From contig NZ_JADBGG010000024.1 of the NCBI RefSeq assembly GCF_014873765.1, positions 1 to 64,000 on the forward strand: 64,000 nucleotides of DNA, written 5' to 3'. The position numbers and the translations under genes are program-made. This document shows positions 7,641 to 36,487 of this stretch, in pieces. Every line of letters begins with the position of its first letter. The first letter of the stretch is position 1. The DNA is from Desulfomicrobium macestii. Its GTDB lineage: Bacteria; Desulfobacterota; Desulfovibrionia; Desulfovibrionales; Desulfomicrobiaceae. The notes under the pieces were generated by a model. The model had not been told where the DNA came from, ran no database searches, and saw only the letters and a program-made list of their open reading frames with translations.

Positions 7641-9224
7641 TCATATCTTCATGAACTCGCCAGCATTCTTGAAGGCCGCTTTAACCCACGCTTTTGTTTC
7701 AGGAAGTGGGCTTTGGGCTCCCTTTTGAACGAACATACTCGACGTCGCATGAATGGACGTGACGTTGCCCTCTTTCGTCTGAGAACTCAAGGTAATAAGG
7801 GCTTTTTTCGCCTCTGATTGTGGGCCAAATAAGTCTTCGTAGCCCTGCCAGGTCGGGCCGGTGACGATGACGTAGCCCAAGTCGGTACGCGGGAGCGTCG
7901 TAGTCAATTTTTCATTCGCACGAACGCAGGCCCGCAAGGCGAGGGTCTTGGCCTTGTTGTCGAAGAAAAGCAGTATCACATTCTGTCCTCGATCTTCCTC
8001 AAAGACGAAAGCGATCGTCTTTGCAGAATTGTCCGACGATACCGCGTGAGTTAGTGGAAATGTTGCGGGTTGAATTGATTGCTGTCCATCTGGGATAGGC
8101 TTTGCTGGGGCCTGCTTGGTTTGCGTTTGTGTGCGGCTGAAAATGCTGGTCACTGTGGCCTGAATGGTTTTGAAGGCACCGATCAAAAGGAGGGCGGCCA
8201 GAGCGCATGCTGCTAATTTGAGCGTCAGCGCAGTCCACTTAGTTTGTTGGGTTGACGATTGTTTGTGTTGCGAATCCTGGTCGGAAAGAAGGGCTTGCAA
8301 TGTCGTGGTTAAGTCCTTGGGGGCTGCCGCCTGGGAGGACGTGCTGCCGTGAGGTGAATTCGTCTGGGCGCGGGCGTAGATGACGCCGCATTTCGGGCAT
8401 TCGCCCGCGCTAAAGTGCAGATCATCGTTTTGTGTGCGTTCATGAAAGCATTTCGGACAGATAATGCCGCCGGTCTGGGACTGAAGGACCATTGGGCTGG
8501 GTTGCGCTGCCTGGTTGGACAACGCAGCGGCCAGCAGGGGGATGATTTGATCCCTCGCCTGGACCGGAAGACTCCCGCGCTGCGAAAGAATATACGGCCG
8601 CAGGTAGCCGACATTGAGCACGGCCACGCCCCGCACCGGCCCTCGAATTTCAACGAATCCCCGCGAGAAGCAAAGGATTGGCTTGATCGACAGTCCGCGC
8701 AGTCTCTCTGCGTTCAGGTGATCCCGGAGCGAGTAGGCTTGGCTCCAGCACTGCTTCAAAAAATCCTTGAAGAATTTGCGTCCGTTTCTAAGCAAGACGT
8801 CGTGTTCCTGAGTTATGTTCCCTTTCTGGCTTTTGGTCTCAACCAAAAAGATGCCGTTGGGGCCGAGGACAACATGGTCGATGTTGAAACCAGGGAATTC
8901 GAGGTCATGGAAGACGTAGTAATCGTCAGGGAGTTCCTGAAGGGCGTCGGCGACGGCTTGTTCAGCTTTGGCGCCTGTGTCGGCGTGGGAAATGCGTTTT
9001 TTGAGCTTGATTCCGGTTTCTTCAAGCGACTCGATGGAGACGACATAGATGACAGCGACCACCGCACTCCAGAAAAGGTGGCCACGTGTGAGCAGATAGT
9101 ATCCGACAGGAAGTAGCAACAGAAAGGACAGCATGGGCAGGACGATGCGGGAGATCAGGTCCTGGTATCGAGTTTCCCCCATGGCAAAAGCACTTTTGCC
9201 CGCTGATCCATAGACCTGAGCCAT
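7641..9224 (-). CDS. membrane-anchored NERD-domain protein with zinc ribbon
   Basis: 527 residues from ATG 9224, which has GAGGAG just upstream; an upstream ATG at 9272 is possible. In order: two closely spaced hydrophobic segments near residues 30-65; a NERD (nuclease-related) domain at about 85-200 with 'NIDHVVLGPNGIFLVETKS', whose D, E and K match the PD-(D/E)XK-like core; a Cys4 zinc ribbon (CPKC ... CPKC) at about 255-280; a hydrophobic helix near 330-350; and a roughly 150-residue C-terminal domain I do not recognise. NERD proteins are thought to act on DNA, but few are characterised. It ends 70 bp upstream of the DUF3883 gene on the same strand, so the two may be co-transcribed. Confidence 0.82.
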   Translation of the reverse strand: MAQVYGSAGKSAFAMGETRYQDLISRIVLPMLSFLLLLPVGYYLLTRGHLFWSAVVAVIYVVSIESLEETGIKLKKRISHADTGAKAEQAVADALQELPDDYYVFHDLEFPGFNIDHVVLGPNGIFLVETKSQKGNITQEHDVLLRNGRKFFKDFLKQCWSQAYSLRDHLNAERLRGLSIKPILCFSRGFVEIRGPVRGVAVLNVGYLRPYILSQRGSLPVQARDQIIPLLAAALSNQAAQPSPMVLQSQTGGIICPKCFHERTQNDDLHFSAGECPKCGVIYARAQTNSPHGSTSSQAAAPKDLTTTLQALLSDQDSQHKQSSTQQTKWTALTLKLAACALAALLLIGAFKTIQATVTSIFSRTQTQTKQAPAKPIPDGQQSIQPATFPLTHAVSSDNSAKTIAFVFEEDRGQNVILLFFDNKAKTLALRACVRANEKLTTTLPRTDLGYVIVTGPTWQGYEDLFGPQSEAKKALITLSSQTKEGNVTSIHATSSMFVQKGAQSPLPETKAWVKAAFKNAGEFMKI

Positions 9225-11597: not shown

Positions 11598-11735
11598 TGA
11601 CCTGCCGGGAAACTGCGAACCTTCAATATTTGGGGGGCCTCACGGTTCAGGTTTTTTCCATATTGGCGACAGATGTGTTCGGGCGTAGTGTTGTCCAGGT
11701 TTGAATGTGGGCGAACGGAGCTGTAGCGCCGTCGT
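11598..11735 (-). mobile_element. IS3-family element, terminal remnant (second copy)
   Basis: It begins with the same TGACCTGCCGGGAAAC terminus as the remnant at 240. Read on the minus strand it encodes 'SVRPHSN' followed by 'TTPEHICRQYGKNLN', the hallmark C-terminal end of the IS3/IS481 integrase core. Frameshifts have destroyed the frame. It lies in the same orientation as the copy at 240-400. Confidence 0.65.
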
Positions 11736-11768
11736 CCAAAGAACGACGCGAAACGTGGAGGTGTAAGC

Positions 11769-12170
11769 GTGAATTATGTGGGATCGTGTCTGTGCGGCAA
11801 GGTCGCCTTCGAGGTCGAAGGCGAATTCGAGAGTTTCTATTTGTGCCATTGCGAACGGTGCCGCAAGGATACCGGGTCGGCCCATGCGGCCAACCTGTTT
11901 TCGTCCACGGCGAATCTACGCTGGCTATCGGGCGAGAACCTGGTGAAGACCTTCAACTTCAACAATACAGGTCACATAAAGAGTTTCTGTGCCGAATGCG
12001 GCTCTGCCTTGCCGAACATCCAAATGGACGGCAAGCTGCTGGTGCTCCCAGCGGGCAGTCTCGACTGCGATGCCCCAATTCCGCCCACGGCCCATATCTT
12101 CGTTTCCCGTAAAGCCAATTGGGACAAGGGGATGGAAATGCTTCCCACTTTTGAGGAACTGCCTGAGTAA
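11769..12170 (+). CDS. GFA/CENP-V family zinc protein
   Basis: 133 residues, the usual length of the glutathione-dependent formaldehyde-activating (GFA) fold. The zinc-binding cysteines are visible: C-x-C near residue 7, C-x-C-x2-C near 30-35 and C-x2-C in 'FCAECG'. Most members are zinc proteins of unknown substrate, and the original formaldehyde-glutathione role is disputed. It starts 34 bp after the IS3 remnant. A GTG/ATG choice is not an issue because the ATG at 11769 begins the domain. Confidence 0.85.
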   Translation: MNYVGSCLCGKVAFEVEGEFESFYLCHCERCRKDTGSAHAANLFSSTANLRWLSGENLVKTFNFNNTGHIKSFCAECGSALPNIQMDGKLLVLPAGSLDCDAPIPPTAHIFVSRKANWDKGMEMLPTFEELPE

Positions 12171-30732: not shown

Positions 30733-31422
30733 TCAGGAACCCTGGGAGGAGAGGATTTTTTCGATCACGGCCTGTGCGTGGCCATGCGGATTGCGCAGGT
30801 CGGCGATGCGGCCGATGACCCCGTGAACGGGCAGCCCGGAGAAGCTTTCGATGGCCGAGCTGTTTTCGGCCCGGTCAAGCTCCGGAACGGCGTCCGTTGG
30901 ATCGGTCAGGACCACGCCCAGGCAAGCGGCCTTGCGGGCCTTCATGGCTTCCAGGGTCAGCAGGGTGTGATTGATGGTTCCCAGACCGGCGCGGCCGACC
31001 ACGAGCAGGGAGGCTCCTGCCTGCATGGCCAGATCGAGCATGGTTTTTTGTGCCGTTATCGGCACCATGAGGCCGCCCGCGCCTTCCACAACCGTGATCT
31101 CGTGGCGGGTGGCGTGAGCGGCAATGAAACGGCACAGGGCGACGAAATCCACGGGATCACCCGCTAAAAGGGGGGCCTTGGGCAAGGGGCGGCAGGAATG
31201 GATGCAGTCCGAGGGCGTCCTGCCCCCCGGCAGACCGCCGGGCAGCAGGTCGTGCACGAAGGAAGCGTCGGAGTCCTGTCCGGGATCGGTACAACCCGTC
31301 TGCACGGGCTTCAGGTACACGGCGTCGCGGGCGGCCAGGGCGCGCATGACGAGCAGGCTGACCACGGTCTTGCCCACATCCGTGTCCGTGCCGGTGATGA
31401 AGATGATCCTGCCGGAGCTCAT
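30733..31422 (-). CDS. bioD: dethiobiotin synthetase
   Basis: 229 residues. It closes the ureido ring of dethiobiotin from diaminopelargonate, CO2 and ATP. The N-terminal 'FITGTDTDVGKTVVS' is the modified P-loop of BioD, and 'VVEGAGGLMVP' is its conserved second motif. The start overlaps the bioF stop by ATGA. It is the last biotin gene of the operon as seen here. Confidence 0.93.
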   Translation of the reverse strand: MSSGRIIFITGTDTDVGKTVVSLLVMRALAARDAVYLKPVQTGCTDPGQDSDASFVHDLLPGGLPGGRTPSDCIHSCRPLPKAPLLAGDPVDFVALCRFIAAHATRHEITVVEGAGGLMVPITAQKTMLDLAMQAGASLLVVGRAGLGTINHTLLTLEAMKARKAACLGVVLTDPTDAVPELDRAENSSAIESFSGLPVHGVIGRIADLRNPHGHAQAVIEKILSSQGS

Positions 31423-32576
31423 GCCTCGTCCTCCTTGTGCAGCGCGCTTGAGAGAGCGTCGCGCAGCCGCGATATGTCGTCCGCGCGGTGCTCGGCGGTC
31501 AGACAGACCCGCAGCATGGCCTGTCCCAGGGGCACGGTGGGGTAGCGGGCCGCGAAGACCAGAATTCCCGCTTCACGCAGGGCCGTGGCCAGGCGCCGGC
31601 AGCGGTTCTCGTCGCCGATTTCCAGCGCCAGGATGTGCGCAGCTCCGCGAACCTGCAGGCCCGCTTGCGGCAGCTCCTTGCGGGCCAGATTCCCGAGCAG
31701 GCGCAGGTGCTCGCGCTGGGCCTCCGACTGGCCGACCCGGTCGAGCATGGCCAGGACCATCTCCCCGTGCCAGGGCGGCAGGGAAGTGGTGTAGATGAAG
31801 CCCTGCCCGAAATGGATCAGATGCTCGCGCACGGCCCGGGGGCAGAGGATGAACGCCCCGAACATTCCAAAGGCCTTGCCCAGCGTGCCCACGGCCACAT
31901 CGGCCACTGCGCGGCCCAGCCCCCGCCCGCCGGGGCCCAGCACGCCGAAGGCATGCGCTTCGTCCACGATGCACAGAAAACCGTTTTCACTCTTGAGCTC
32001 TTGAAGTGCCGCAAAGTCCGGGCTGTCACCGTCCATGCTGAACAGCGATTCGGTCAGCACGGCCTGGGCCGGGTGCGCCATGAGCAATTTGCGCAGATGG
32101 CTCATGCGGTTGTGGCGGAAGGTGTGGAACTGCGCCCGGCTGTGCCGCACCCCAGCCACGGTGCTGGTATGGGCGCGCTTGTCGAGCAGGAGCGTGTCCC
32201 TTTCGGAAAAGAGCGTGGAGATGAGCGTGAGGTTGGCCAGGAATCCACTGCCGAGGATCAGGCAGGATTCATATCCGAAATAGTCGGCCAGGGCCTGCTC
32301 GGCGTCCAGGGTGGAACGGGTCGTACCCGTGACCAGGCGCGAGGCGCCGCTGCCGCTGCCAGAGCGTCGGCACAGCTGCGCCAGAGTTTCGGCCAGCTCC
32401 GGGTCCTGGGCCAGTCCAAGAAAATCGTTGGAGGAGAAATTGAGATACGCGCGGTCGCCCATGACCACGCTGGCGCCCTCTCGTCCGGTCACGGGCAGAA
32501 GCTCGCGGCCGAGACCGGCCTGGCGGCGGGCTTCGGTCTCGTTTTTCAGGCGCTCTAGGAAATTGTGCTCAGGCAT
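31419..32576 (-). CDS. bioF: 8-amino-7-oxononanoate synthase
   Basis: 385 residues, a PLP enzyme of the alpha-oxoamine synthase family that condenses pimeloyl-ACP or -CoA with alanine. 'GTLGKAFGMFGAF' holds the PLP lysine, and 'DEAHAFGVLGPGGRGL' holds the cofactor Asp and His. Its start lies 22 bases inside the upstream hotdog gene, an extreme overlap that implies translational coupling. It is the first committed biotin enzyme after the pimelate-making genes. Confidence 0.93.
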   Translation of the reverse strand: MPEHNFLERLKNETEARRQAGLGRELLPVTGREGASVVMGDRAYLNFSSNDFLGLAQDPELAETLAQLCRRSGSGSGASRLVTGTTRSTLDAEQALADYFGYESCLILGSGFLANLTLISTLFSERDTLLLDKRAHTSTVAGVRHSRAQFHTFRHNRMSHLRKLLMAHPAQAVLTESLFSMDGDSPDFAALQELKSENGFLCIVDEAHAFGVLGPGGRGLGRAVADVAVGTLGKAFGMFGAFILCPRAVREHLIHFGQGFIYTTSLPPWHGEMVLAMLDRVGQSEAQREHLRLLGNLARKELPQAGLQVRGAAHILALEIGDENRCRRLATALREAGILVFAARYPTVPLGQAMLRVCLTAEHRADDISRLRDALSSALHKEDEA

Positions 32577-32953
32577 GCGAAACGACTTTGAAAAAAGGTG
32601 TCCGGGGAGTCGGAGGCGGCATTCATCCCGATGAGAATCCGGCAGGCCGGACCGTCATCCACTGTCACTGCGTAGCTCGCGCCGGCCTTGGTCCTGGCGG
32701 TGATGTCGGCCCGGATGGTCAGGGGCTTTGCGCCAAGGCCCGGAGCATAGAGGAGGTCGGCCACGGACACAAGATAGGCCTGGATCCTGAAATCGTGCAG
32801 GTACCGCAGATGCATGCCGCAGGTCTGGGCCATGGCCTCAAGGGCCAGGTACGGCGGCAGGGAGTTGGTGCGGGTCACGATTTGCCGTGCATCGCAGGAC
32901 AGGATGGACTCCAGGGCCCTTGAGGGGTCGAAAGCACAAAAGTCTAGATCCAC
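32555..32953 (-). CDS. hotdog-fold dehydratase-like protein, Glu-type half site
   Basis: 132 residues from a GTG at 32953, which overlaps the ketosynthase stop. The segment 'SLPPYLALEAMAQTCG' (31-46) matches the FabZ/ApeP hotdog helix that carries the catalytic Glu (E39 here). In FabZ the catalytic His lies 14 residues earlier, in HFPG; at that position this protein has Ile25 and no HFPG motif. It therefore seems to have the acidic half of the dehydratase site only. A second small hotdog in the same operon has the opposite half. By context it should act on the hydroxyacyl-ACP intermediate of pimelate synthesis, perhaps as part of a heterodimer. Confidence 0.72.
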   Translation of the reverse strand: MDLDFCAFDPSRALESILSCDARQIVTRTNSLPPYLALEAMAQTCGMHLRYLHDFRIQAYLVSVADLLYAPGLGAKPLTIRADITARTKAGASYAVTVDDGPACRILIGMNAASDSPDTFFQSRFACLSTIS

Positions 32954-34110
32954 GGCCGCACCCCCAGGCAGGCGTTTTGCCCTCCGAAGCCGAAGCTTTG
33001 CAACAGAAGGCCCCGGGGGTTGCGCTGCAAGGGTTCGCGCAGCAGGGGCAGGTCGTCCCGGCAAGGGTTTTCAAGCCCGGCGATGGCCGGAAAGTGTCCC
33101 TGGGCGGCGCAAACAAGGCCGAGCGCAAGCTCAGCGCAGCCGCAGGCCGCCGCCAGATGGCCGATCCTGGACTTGAAGGCCGTGATGCCCATGGCCCGGG
33201 GCGCTGTCCGGGCCAGAATCTCCCCCTCCACCGAGTCATTCAGGACCGTGCCCGTGCCATGCGCAAGGACAAAGAGGTCATCGGCGCCAAGCGTTTCCAG
33301 GCAGCGCAGCACGGCGGTGCCGGCCGCTTGCCCGGCGGGGTCGGGGCCGGTCAGGCTCCCTCCGTCCAGGGAAGAGGAGGCGCTGACGATCTCGGCCAGA
33401 ATCCGGGCTCCGCGAGCCTCGGCATGTTCCAGACACTCCAGCGCGAAGACCGCGCCGCCTTCGCCGATGGCAAAACCGCAGCGGTCCCGGTCGAAGGGCC
33501 TGCAGGCCAGTTCCGGGCGATCGAAGCCCGTGGCCAGGACTCCGGCCTGTTTGTAGGCGCGAACTCCCTCCACGGAGAGGCGGGAGTCTCCACCGCCGGC
33601 CAGGGCCACGTCCGCAAGTCCCGTCGCCACGGCGCGAAAGGCCTGCCCCAGCGCCTGGGTCGAAGCCGCGCAGGCGGTCAGGATGGTCAGGTTTTCTCCG
33701 TGCATGCCCAGCATTTCGGCCATGACCGAGGACACGGTATTGGGCAGATAATCCAGAAGCCACAAGGCCTTGTCGTCCCGTGGGCGGGCCTGCAGATTTG
33801 GGCCGAGGCCCAGAAAAAGTCCGGCCTGACCCAGTTCGTTGGGGCCGAGCCCGGCGTCGTCCACGGCCCTGACGGCGGCGGCCAGGCAGAGCTGCTGGCC
33901 CCGGGTCAGATAGCGGGCGTTCTTGCAGCGGCTGACATGGGCCTTGAGATCAAAATCGGGGACCGGGCAGACCGCGACCTCCGGATCTGCCACGGAGCGA
34001 AGAAAAGGGCCGTGCGGCCGTTGCAGGGCGGAGAAGACCTCTGCCCTGTTCGAGCCGAGCGGCAGCACGAAGCCGCTGCCGGTGATCACCACCCGGCGCG
34101 CGCCGTTCAT
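32944..34110 (-). CDS. beta-ketoacyl-ACP synthase, FabF-like, biotin operon
   Basis: 388 residues. The full ketosynthase triad is present: C147 in 'TACAAST', H284 in 'AHGTGT', and K313/H318 in 'FKSRIGHLAAACG'. It should perform decarboxylative Claisen condensation on an ACP-bound chain. The ATG at 34110 follows the ACP stop by one base. Its position between bioB and bioF, with a dedicated ACP, reductase and hotdog proteins, suggests it elongates the pimeloyl precursor rather than membrane lipid chains. It shows no membrane segment. Confidence 0.85.
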   Translation of the reverse strand: MNGARRVVITGSGFVLPLGSNRAEVFSALQRPHGPFLRSVADPEVAVCPVPDFDLKAHVSRCKNARYLTRGQQLCLAAAVRAVDDAGLGPNELGQAGLFLGLGPNLQARPRDDKALWLLDYLPNTVSSVMAEMLGMHGENLTILTACAASTQALGQAFRAVATGLADVALAGGGDSRLSVEGVRAYKQAGVLATGFDRPELACRPFDRDRCGFAIGEGGAVFALECLEHAEARGARILAEIVSASSSLDGGSLTGPDPAGQAAGTAVLRCLETLGADDLFVLAHGTGTVLNDSVEGEILARTAPRAMGITAFKSRIGHLAAACGCAELALGLVCAAQGHFPAIAGLENPCRDDLPLLREPLQRNPRGLLLQSFGFGGQNACLGVRPWI

Positions 34111-34111
34111 C

Positions 34112-34492
34112 TCAGTTTCCTGCCGTGGCGGCCGGGAAGGCCTGGGCATAGGCCACCAGATCGCGCACCTGCAGCACCGGTCCGGCGGCCAGGTCGTCCA
34201 GGATTTCCTGTAGGCGGGTTTCGGGCAGATAGGGGTATGCCGACTCGAGGGCCGACAGGGCACCTAAGTTGTCGCGCTTGGCCCGGTTCAGGATGATGCG
34301 CACGTTCTTGAGAAAAAGCAGGTCGTCGTCCACGGCGATGCCCAGCCTGTGCTGCATGGCCACTCCGATCTCAAGCAGGTCGATGGATTCGGCCTTGAGA
34401 GTGCGGATGACATAGGTCTCGGGGGTGATCTCCGCCGGGTCCAGGTCCAGGATTTCGGCCAGAATGGAACAGATGGTCGGGAAGTGATTCAT
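34112..34492 (-). CDS. acyl carrier protein with C-terminal insertion, biotin operon
   Basis: 126 residues, against about 78 for a normal ACP. S36 in 'LKAESIDLLEIGVAM' is at the usual phosphopantetheine position (DSL in E. coli). The first two helices are clear. An extra segment of roughly 40 residues, with basic 'KNVRIILNRAKRD' and later acidic parts, precedes the last helix 'LQVRDLVAYAQ'. ATG 34492 overlaps the SDR stop. It should carry the growing pimelate chain for the operon's own enzymes. Confidence 0.78.
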   Translation of the reverse strand: MNHFPTICSILAEILDLDPAEITPETYVIRTLKAESIDLLEIGVAMQHRLGIAVDDDLLFLKNVRIILNRAKRDNLGALSALESAYPYLPETRLQEILDDLAAGPVLQVRDLVAYAQAFPAATAGN

Positions 34493-35223
34493 GCGTATTT
34501 TTGCGCCGTCAGTCCGGCGTCCATGGTAATGGTTGTGCAGGTCAGGGCCAGGGCCTGATCGGAGAGCAGGAACAGCAGCGTGCCCGCCGCCTGGTCCACG
34601 GTCACGATTTTTCGTGACAGGTCTTGCCGCCTGTTTTCCCTGTCCAGGAAACGCTCCCCGCGCCCCGCATCGACAAGGCCAAGACGAAGGCTCAGGCTCG
34701 TAATGCCGCGCGGGCCCAGTTCCAGGGCCAGGCTTTGGTACAGTCCCTCGGCCGATCTCTTGGCCGCGCAGTAAAATCCCTGACCGGGAGCGGGCATGGC
34801 GGCGGCGGTGGAAGAAAGATGCACGAGGCGACCGAAACGGCGCGCCAGCATGGACCGGGTAACCGCCTTGAGCAGGAGCAGTCGGTTGGCGATGTTGGCC
34901 TGGAAATAGGCGTCCATGTCGGTTTCGCCTGACGCCGCCAGGAGCACTTCGTGGTCGGCATGGGCAAGATCGACCAGATAATCCACCCCGGTTTGAAGCA
35001 GGGGGGCAAGGGTGGCCTGGCTGGCCTTGTCGCCGAGGTCCAGCCACGGACTCTTGCCCGTCAGTTCCGGAAATTTGCGGTATATGGCGGCTTTTCCGTC
35101 TTCCGAGGCATGCGTCGGGATGACGGCCAGGCCTTCCTCCAGCAGCAGGCCGGTCAGGGCCAGGCCGATGGAGCAGCCGCCTCCGAGGACAAGGACTGTC
35201 TTGCCGTGAAAGTCGAGCTTCAT
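34489..35223 (-). CDS. SDR-family ketoreductase, FabG-like, biotin operon
   Basis: 244 residues, short-chain dehydrogenase/reductase. The cofactor loop 'LGGGCSIGLAL' (13-23), N110, S137/S138, Y151 and K155 (Y-x3-K) form the expected active site. By context it reduces the beta-ketoacyl-ACP made by the operon's ketosynthase. The ATG 35223 overlaps the stop of the upstream hotdog gene by ATGA, and its own stop overlaps the ACP start. Confidence 0.85.
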   Translation of the reverse strand: MKLDFHGKTVLVLGGGCSIGLALTGLLLEEGLAVIPTHASEDGKAAIYRKFPELTGKSPWLDLGDKASQATLAPLLQTGVDYLVDLAHADHEVLLAASGETDMDAYFQANIANRLLLLKAVTRSMLARRFGRLVHLSSTAAAMPAPGQGFYCAAKRSAEGLYQSLALELGPRGITSLSLRLGLVDAGRGERFLDRENRRQDLSRKIVTVDQAAGTLLFLLSDQALALTCTTITMDAGLTAQKYA

Positions 35224-35528
35224 GCGGTGATCCTGCCTTGGGCGAAAATCGTGTCCTCGCGGCTCAGGGTGCACAGATACGTTCCCCCTTCGTCCTCTAT
35301 GCCCAACGCGTACTCCCCGGGGGAGGCGAAGCGGGAAAAGGAGAAACGGCGGATGTGAAGCGGTCCCTTGTGCCCAAGAAAGCTTGAAATGGCCTGCAGG
35401 CAAAGGCCCGTGACGAGCGAACCGGGCACCACGGGATTGCCGGGAAAATGTCCGTTGAAACAGCTGTCGGCCGGATCAAAGGAAACCGACATCTGCAGCG
35501 GATCGCGCGAGACGAGACTCAAATCCAT
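35220..35528 (-). CDS. hotdog-fold dehydratase-like protein, His-type half site
   Basis: 102 residues, short for a FabZ. 'GHFPGNPVVPGSL' (26-38) is the FabZ signature with the catalytic H27. Fourteen residues on, where FabZ has its catalytic Glu, there is Gly41, and the E-A-x-A-Q helix is missing. So this protein keeps the His half of the site and lacks the acid. The other small hotdog of the operon has the reverse. FabZ active sites combine His and Glu from two subunits, so a heterodimer would restore one full site. ATG 35528 overlaps the end of bioB. Confidence 0.75.
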   Translation of the reverse strand: MDLSLVSRDPLQMSVSFDPADSCFNGHFPGNPVVPGSLVTGLCLQAISSFLGHKGPLHIRRFSFSRFASPGEYALGIEDEGGTYLCTLSREDTIFAQGRITA

Positions 35529-36487
35529 GCGCCCTGCTCCAGCATTTTGAGATCCGCGTCCAGATCGCGCCCCTTTGTGGTCAGGTAGTTGCCGATCATC
35601 ATGCCGTTGGCTCCGGCCAGGGGCAGCCAGGACTGATAGTCGCCCAAGACCCGCTCCCGGCCACCGGCGATGGTGATGCTTGCTTTTGGGAGCATGAAGC
35701 GAAACAGGGCCACGGATTTGAGGGCGTCGTGCACGGACAGGAGCGGACTGTCCTGAAGGGGTGTGCCCGCGATGGGCGACAGGAAATTGAGCGGCACCGT
35801 ATCCACGTCCAGTTCGGCCAGGGTGGCGGCCAGTTCGACGCGCTGCGCCCATGACTCGCCAAGGCCGAGGATGCCGCCCGAGCAGATGCGCAGTCCGTGC
35901 TCTTTGGCCAGGCGGATGGTGGCGATGTCCTCGTCGTAGGAGTGGGTCGTGCAGATGGACGGGAAGTGGGAGCGGGCCGTTTCCAGATTGTGATGGTAGC
36001 GGGTCAGTCCGGCCCTCGTCAGACGGCGCGCGTAGTCCGGGTTCAGGAGCCCGAGGGAGGCGCTGAGCTGAAGCGAGGTCCGGGATTTGAGAGCGTCGAT
36101 GCAGGCGGCGATGCGGTCGATTTCGTCGATGGAGAGCATCAGCCCGCTGGTCACCAGCGAATAGCAGGCGGCTCCGGCCTGGTGCATGGCCAGCCCGCGG
36201 TCGATGAGCTCCTCCAGCGGGAGCAGCGCATGGGTCGGGCTGTCCGTATCGTAATGTCCGCTTTGAGCGCAGAATCTGCAATCCTGGGAACAGGTCCCGG
36301 ATTTGGCGTTGGTGATGGAGCAGGTGAAAGGGCGATGCCCCATGGCCCGGGTGATGGCGTTCGCCGCGAACAGAAGTTCGGTGGTGTGCCCGCTTTCAAG
36401 ATCGGCCAGCAGATTCCCCTGCTCTTCGCTCAAGGGTTTGCCGTCGAGGATCTGGCTGGAAAGACGTGTAATCAGTGGATGCAGCAT
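35519..36487 (-). CDS. bioB: biotin synthase
   Basis: 322 residues, radical-SAM enzyme that inserts sulfur into dethiobiotin. The cluster-binding C-x3-C-x2-C is 'CSQDCRFC', followed by the BioB-specific 'AQSGHYDTDSP'. The later conserved 'NLETARSHFP', here 'HHNLETARS', is also present. It is the first gene of the operon and divergent from mgtE over 125 bp. I looked for the TTGTAAACC-type BirA operator in that spacer and did not see it. Confidence 0.95.
   Translation of the reverse strand: MLHPLITRLSSQILDGKPLSEEQGNLLADLESGHTTELLFAANAITRAMGHRPFTCSITNAKSGTCSQDCRFCAQSGHYDTDSPTHALLPLEELIDRGLAMHQAGAACYSLVTSGLMLSIDEIDRIAACIDALKSRTSLQLSASLGLLNPDYARRLTRAGLTRYHHNLETARSHFPSICTTHSYDEDIATIRLAKEHGLRICSGGILGLGESWAQRVELAATLAELDVDTVPLNFLSPIAGTPLQDSPLLSVHDALKSVALFRFMLPKASITIAGGRERVLGDYQSWLPLAGANGMMIGNYLTTKGRDLDADLKMLEQGAWI

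Follow-up and report, generated by a model that had tools for sequence, protein, structure and literature searches.

Analysis of the biotin operon within a 64,000-nucleotide stretch of Desulfomicrobium macestii DNA (the window) indicates that two small hotdog proteins, DHH and DHE, probably form a heterodimeric 3-hydroxyacyl-ACP dehydratase whose active site is split between H27 of DHH and E39 of DHE. Both the assembly and the catalysis are predicted from residue conservation, structural models and analogy to known enzymes. In the proposed mechanism the two proteins would pair as a hotdog heterodimer in which H27 and E39 come together at one interface site as a His/Glu pair of the FabZ type. 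The mirror site would lack a His and be dead, leaving the acid of DHH free to drift. The heterodimer would dehydrate 3-hydroxyacyl-ACP in a dedicated pimeloyl-ACP elongation cycle, the other parts of which would be a 3-oxoacyl-ACP synthase (KS), a 3-oxoacyl-ACP reductase (KR), a separate enoyl reductase and a dedicated ACP. In a less certain step, R50 of DHE, at the bottom of the tunnel in the live site, would bind the dicarboxylyl chain by its free carboxylate, and such binding would let the pathway run without the BioC methyl ester.

Neither the split-site principle, which ApeI:P of aryl polyene pigment synthesis already exemplifies, nor the extended biotin operon is new. Assignment of a split site to biotin synthesis appears to be new, and no recognition of one in vitamin synthesis was found in the literature. 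The drift, between lineages, of an acid that would be redundant likewise appears new, as does the R50 hypothesis, in which an invariant Arg takes the place of a hydrophobic tunnel residue of FabZ. The synthesis of pimeloyl-ACP without methyl ester protection in Desulfovibrio-type bacteria is stated to be an open question in PMC10102598. The proposal would give the dehydratase of this pathway a concrete form, name its two catalytic residues and a candidate residue for binding the carboxylate, and make the step directly testable.

The operon is compact and its gene order is bioB, DHH, KR, ACP, KS, DHE, bioF, bioD (Table 1), which corrects a detail of the operon in a first-pass annotation of the window. 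The C-terminal extension of the operon ACP runs for roughly 50–60 residues past the ACP domain match. Unlike in the extended operon of Desulfovibrio, bioA lies outside the operon and is found on a different contig of the genome. No BioC was found above the curated cut-off in this genome, and BioW is absent from it.

Table 1. Positions of the operon genes, the codons of interest and a second split pair on contig C30 of the same genome.
Feature	Sequence	Position	Strand	Basis or remark
bioB, biotin synthase	window	35519..36487	-	PF06968, PF04055
DHH, 102-aa hotdog protein, HFPG motif	window	35220..35528	-	translation, Pfam, AlphaFold, PDB match
Codon of H27 of DHH (putative catalytic His)	window	35448..35450	-	invariant in 39/39 operons
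Codon of G41 of DHH	window	35406..35408	-	position of FabZ catalytic Glu; drifts between orthologues
KR, FabG-like 3-oxoacyl-ACP reductase (SDR)	window	34489..35223	-	Pfam / NCBIfam
Dedicated acyl carrier protein, 126 aa, long C-terminal extension	window	34112..34492	-	PF00550, E 4e-7
KS, FabF-like 3-oxoacyl-ACP synthase	window	32944..34110	-	Pfam / NCBIfam
DHE, 132-aa hotdog protein, GTG start, EAMAQ helix	window	32555..32953	-	translation, AlphaFold, PDB matches
Codon of E39 of DHE (putative catalytic Glu)	window	32837..32839	-	invariant in 39/39 operons
Codon of R50 of DHE	window	32804..32806	-	invariant Arg at Glu+11; H. pylori FabZ tunnel residue Phe83
bioF	window	31419..32576	-	PF00155; place after DHE conserved
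bioD	window	30733..31422	-	PF13500; position conserved
ApeI-like	C30 locus	7679-8056		HFP/His kept, Leu at acid position
ApeP-like	C30 locus	11711-12169		Glu kept; locus found by the PF22817 search, which did not find DHE

A 2004 study proposed that an extended biotin operon provides a new route to the pimelate precursor (PMC545781), and the Desulfovibrio operon DVU2558-2565 resembles the present one in having two FabZ-like genes, KR, ACP and KS between bio genes. Transposon fitness data for D. vulgaris (PMC10102598) indicate that DVU2560 and DORF42491 (FabZ-like) are needed without biotin, like the rest of the cluster, and the authors infer that pimeloyl-ACP is made by a route without methyl esters. 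Phenotypes of this kind could reflect polar effects, which counts against the heterodimer reading. FabZ-like or dehydratase homologues are named in the available portions of both papers, and a split site or a heterodimer goes unmentioned in those portions.

The translation of DHH includes CFNGHFPGNPVVPGSLVTGLCLQA, from which the positions of H27 and G41 were read. The protein carries HFPGNPVVPGSLVTG, so that H27 is present and a Gly occupies the position of the FabZ glutamate. It passes the FabA-like Pfam family PF07977 (E 5e-7), while its scores against the NCBIfam models TIGR01750 and NF000582 (20.9 and 21.5 bits) are below the cut-offs of 155 and 113. The AlphaFold models of DHH (alignment of 40 sequences) and DHE (43 sequences) are both confident hotdog folds (pLDDT 90.0 and 92.3). 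The best PDB match to DHH was 6qsr_A (ApeI), at rank 1 in Foldseek and with Z 13.6, rmsd 2.1 and 96 aligned by VIA, as compared to Z 12.0 for the best FabZ chain by VIA.

Within the translation of DHE, SLPPYLALEAMAQTCGMHLRYL contains E39, which sits in LALEAMAQ, and HFPG is absent. Translation thus bore out the first-pass annotation in the location of both genes, in H27 and in G41 14 residues further on in DHH, and in the presence of E39 and absence of HFPG in DHE. The annotation had also read Ile25 of DHE as replacing the His, which proved to be an artefact of counting back 14 residues from the Glu. Profile alignment to FabZ places a 16-residue deletion directly after T29, and in the AlphaFold model strand 24-28 is followed by a short loop and then by the central helix at 34-52. 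Judged by the alignment and the model, the His-bearing loop of DHE is missing rather than replaced and DHE is without a catalytic His.

No Pfam family was found for DHE, and neither TIGR01750 nor NF000582 of NCBIfam matched it. The Foldseek list was led by FabZ chains together with 6qsr_B (ApeP; rank 2, E 6e-6). By VIA, FabZ chains reached Z values of up to 13.2 and 6qsr_B reached 10.9, a ranking that counts against the heterodimer reading. Profile comparison slightly favoured FabZ (E 4e-11) over ApeP (E 7e-7), with few ApeP sequences compared. Because VIA ranks FabZ above 6qsr_B, DHE is classed on sequence and model as FabZ/ApeP-like, with no firm choice between the two.

The DHE fold also resembles 4-hydroxybenzoyl-CoA thioesterases (Z about 11), and a normal, complete FabZ with both His and Glu (126.7 bits) is encoded elsewhere in the genome and might serve the pathway, which also weighs against the heterodimer reading. 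These observations would fit a pair that is not a dehydratase at all, the housekeeping FabZ dehydrating and the central-helix Glu of DHE, for example, hydrolysing acyl-ACP like the Arthrobacter-type hotdog thioesterases. This is highly improbable in our judgement, as the EAMAQ helix motif of DHE is a FabZ motif and the DHE profile matches FabZ. Furthermore, the proposed pathway requires a dehydratase for which the cluster holds no other candidate, and a role other than dehydration would leave the invariant HFP loop of DHH unexplained.

In FabZ, the site is made up of His58 of one subunit and Glu72 of the other (PMC2692856), which confirms the statement of the first-pass annotation that the two residues come from different subunits. 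For this reason a DHH:DHE dimer of the FabZ kind would have exactly one complete site. Both models have the hotdog fold of FabZ and the His/Glu pair would likewise lie at the dimer interface; FabZ, however, is homodimeric, has two sites and carries both residues on the same polypeptide, whereas DHH and DHE split them.

The two models match the two chains of one known dehydratase heterocomplex, PDB entry 6QSR, entitled 'The Dehydratase Heterocomplex ApeI:P'. PMC8041823 describes the ApeI/ApeP dehydratase as heterodimeric 'with a single active site', and the split arrangement is therefore not the new way of building a dehydratase that the annotation had taken it for. The details of ApeI:P used here were drawn from the PDB title, PMC8041823 and sequence. 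Like the biotin pair, ApeI:ApeP consists of two different small hotdog proteins, one with HFP/His and the other with a central-helix Glu and no such His, and DHH and DHE match the ApeI and ApeP chains of 6QSR, respectively. ApeP of 6QSR has the Glu and lacks that His, and ApeI of 6QSR keeps an Asp 14 residues after its His where most DHH proteins have no acid. DHE differs from ApeP in being shorter, in having no PF22817 match and in an invariant Arg unseen in the ApeP-like sequences examined; pathway and substrate differ as well. HadAB of Mycobacterium is likewise a hotdog dehydratase made of two different subunits, with one of its sites live and the other dead, but its Asp36 and His41 both come from HadB (PMC4491049), whereas the His and Glu of the biotin pair are on different proteins.

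The likeness to ApeI:ApeP raises the question of descent. It is conceivable that DHH and DHE work by the same mechanism and are true ApeI/ApeP members derived from an aryl polyene cluster, differing in substrate alone. The structure nearest to DHH among those solved is ApeI, the ApeI-like Pfam family PF22818 matches 13/27 DHH orthologues, weakly (best E 2e-4) and without a match to DHH of the window, and the genome holds an ApeI/ApeP-like pair of its own on contig C30. Set against this, the ApeP-like family PF22817 matches none of 26 DHE proteins, the longer loop of ApeP is absent from DHE and the DHE profile places FabZ above ApeP in a comparison that used two ApeI-like and four ApeP-like sequences. 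We consider this variant fairly unlikely. The C30 pair belongs to an aryl-polyene-like, pigment-type gene group (locus L135:5838-13225) that also includes one large exporter-like protein, one LolA-like and one 4HBT-like protein, and radical SAM proteins, named by eye from translations. The genome thus holds two pairs of an H-only and an E-only protein, each in its own gene neighbourhood. If the heterodimer reading is right, the biotin pair would extend the ApeI:P-like split-site design beyond pigment synthesis, most lineages having lost the redundant acid and some having retained it.

Conservation of the proposed catalytic residues was evaluated across 39 genomes with matching operons. The His of DHH and the Glu of DHE were both present in 39/39, so the co-conservation of the two residues on separate proteins to which the annotation had looked for support is found. 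At the acid position of DHH the same operons have Gly in 10, Ala in 8, His in 6, Gln in 6, Glu in 4, Asp in 3, Lys in 1 and Ser in 1. Three further genomes, two of which have DHH and DHE on separate contigs, have Ala, Asn and Glu at this position and keep both the DHH His and the DHE Glu. In total, out of 42 genomes with both genes, DHH has an acid in 8 (5 Glu, 3 Asp) and none in 34. On a KS+BioF tree the position has undergone at least 11 changes, at least 5 of them between acid and non-acid, and within one genus it is Glu in one genome (G278) and Ala in another (G581). The dN/dS values of 0.11-0.41 for DHH and DHE point to purifying selection, and as the half-motifs are in addition invariant in 39 operons they are not due to chance.

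An invariant His and Glu together with a drifting DHH acid is what a dimer with H27/E39 as its sole working site would predict; the acid of DHH would drift because it would belong to the dead site. The eight acid-bearing DHH proteins look like ApeI with its residual second acid, and the other 34 seem to have gone further. In principle these eight could also act alone as homodimers, which is an argument against the heterodimer reading. More generally, DHH by itself might be the dehydratase, as a homodimer in which H27 works with water or a different acid, DHE serving purely for structure or for docking of the ACP. DHH does have the entire HFPG loop and scores above the cut-off of the FabA-like Pfam family, and the acid 14 residues on is retained in this minority of orthologues. 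Most DHH proteins nevertheless lack an acid there, some having His, Lys or Gln, and a purely structural DHE would not need an invariant Glu and R50, making a lone DHH very unlikely. The first-pass annotation had held that a His and an acid in one orthologue would speak against the split. Such orthologues do exist, but refutation of the split on their account was rejected since in every one of these genomes DHE retains its Glu and is without the His loop.

The two genes go together, DHH being found in 42 of the 43 genomes with DHE. The sole exception (G018) is an incomplete assembly in which the contig starts just before the KS gene. No natural DHH-DHE fusion was seen among the operons. A scan of genome contigs for DHE with a narrow pattern gave 12 loci, and as the phylum and class searches touched few families beyond the order, the true spread of the pair is underestimated. 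On a short contig of one genome (G522; L099:1021-2053), two neighbouring dehydratase-like genes lie beside KS, both with His and Glu, and no bio genes were seen on that contig.

Fully invariant residues of DHE are limited to E39, R50 and one C-terminal Leu. R50, which lies in the same helix as E39, is found in 39/39 operons and throughout the 43-row alignment, H48 in 36/39, and the Glu+7 position is Gly or Ala in 38/39. The equivalent positions of H. pylori FabZ, Phe83 (Glu72+11) and Gly79 (Glu+7), line the hydrophobic substrate pocket (PMC2692856). In the ApeP-like and FabZ sequences examined Glu+11 is I, L, N, H, G or S, although in one alignment an anammox FabZ seems to carry a Lys at about Glu+11, which suggests that a positive charge at this position is not unique to the biotin pathway. 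An Arg buried at this point would be a natural acceptor for the free carboxylate that dicarboxylyl-ACP intermediates carry, and R50 may have this role for the pimelate precursor; of the whole proposal, this element is the least certain. Extended further, the split dehydratase might be specialised for unmasked dicarboxylic chains, R50 together with the near-invariant H48 holding the omega-carboxylate of 3-hydroxyglutaryl- and 3-hydroxypimeloyl-ACP, a possibility that we put forward tentatively and that is less probable than its alternatives taken together. If true, splitting of the dimer would let one tunnel turn polar and would explain how pimelate is made without the BioC/BioH methyl ester.

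Several further features of these genomes were observed. Ten PF00881 (nitroreductase family) matches are present in the D. macestii genome, several of which are candidates for the missing enoyl reductase, and DVU1220 is taken to have a counterpart among these genes. A nitroreductase gene is reported in such biotin clusters (PMC10102598). In three loci of other families (L089, L092 and L104) a gap of about 630-690 bases, roughly the size of a nitroreductase gene, separates the KS and ACP genes, a gap that is absent from the operon in the window. In two loci, L088 and L115 (Desulfothermus okinawensis), bioB, KS and bioF are each split over several frames with the gene order kept, and draft sequencing errors are a more likely cause of these broken frames than true decay.
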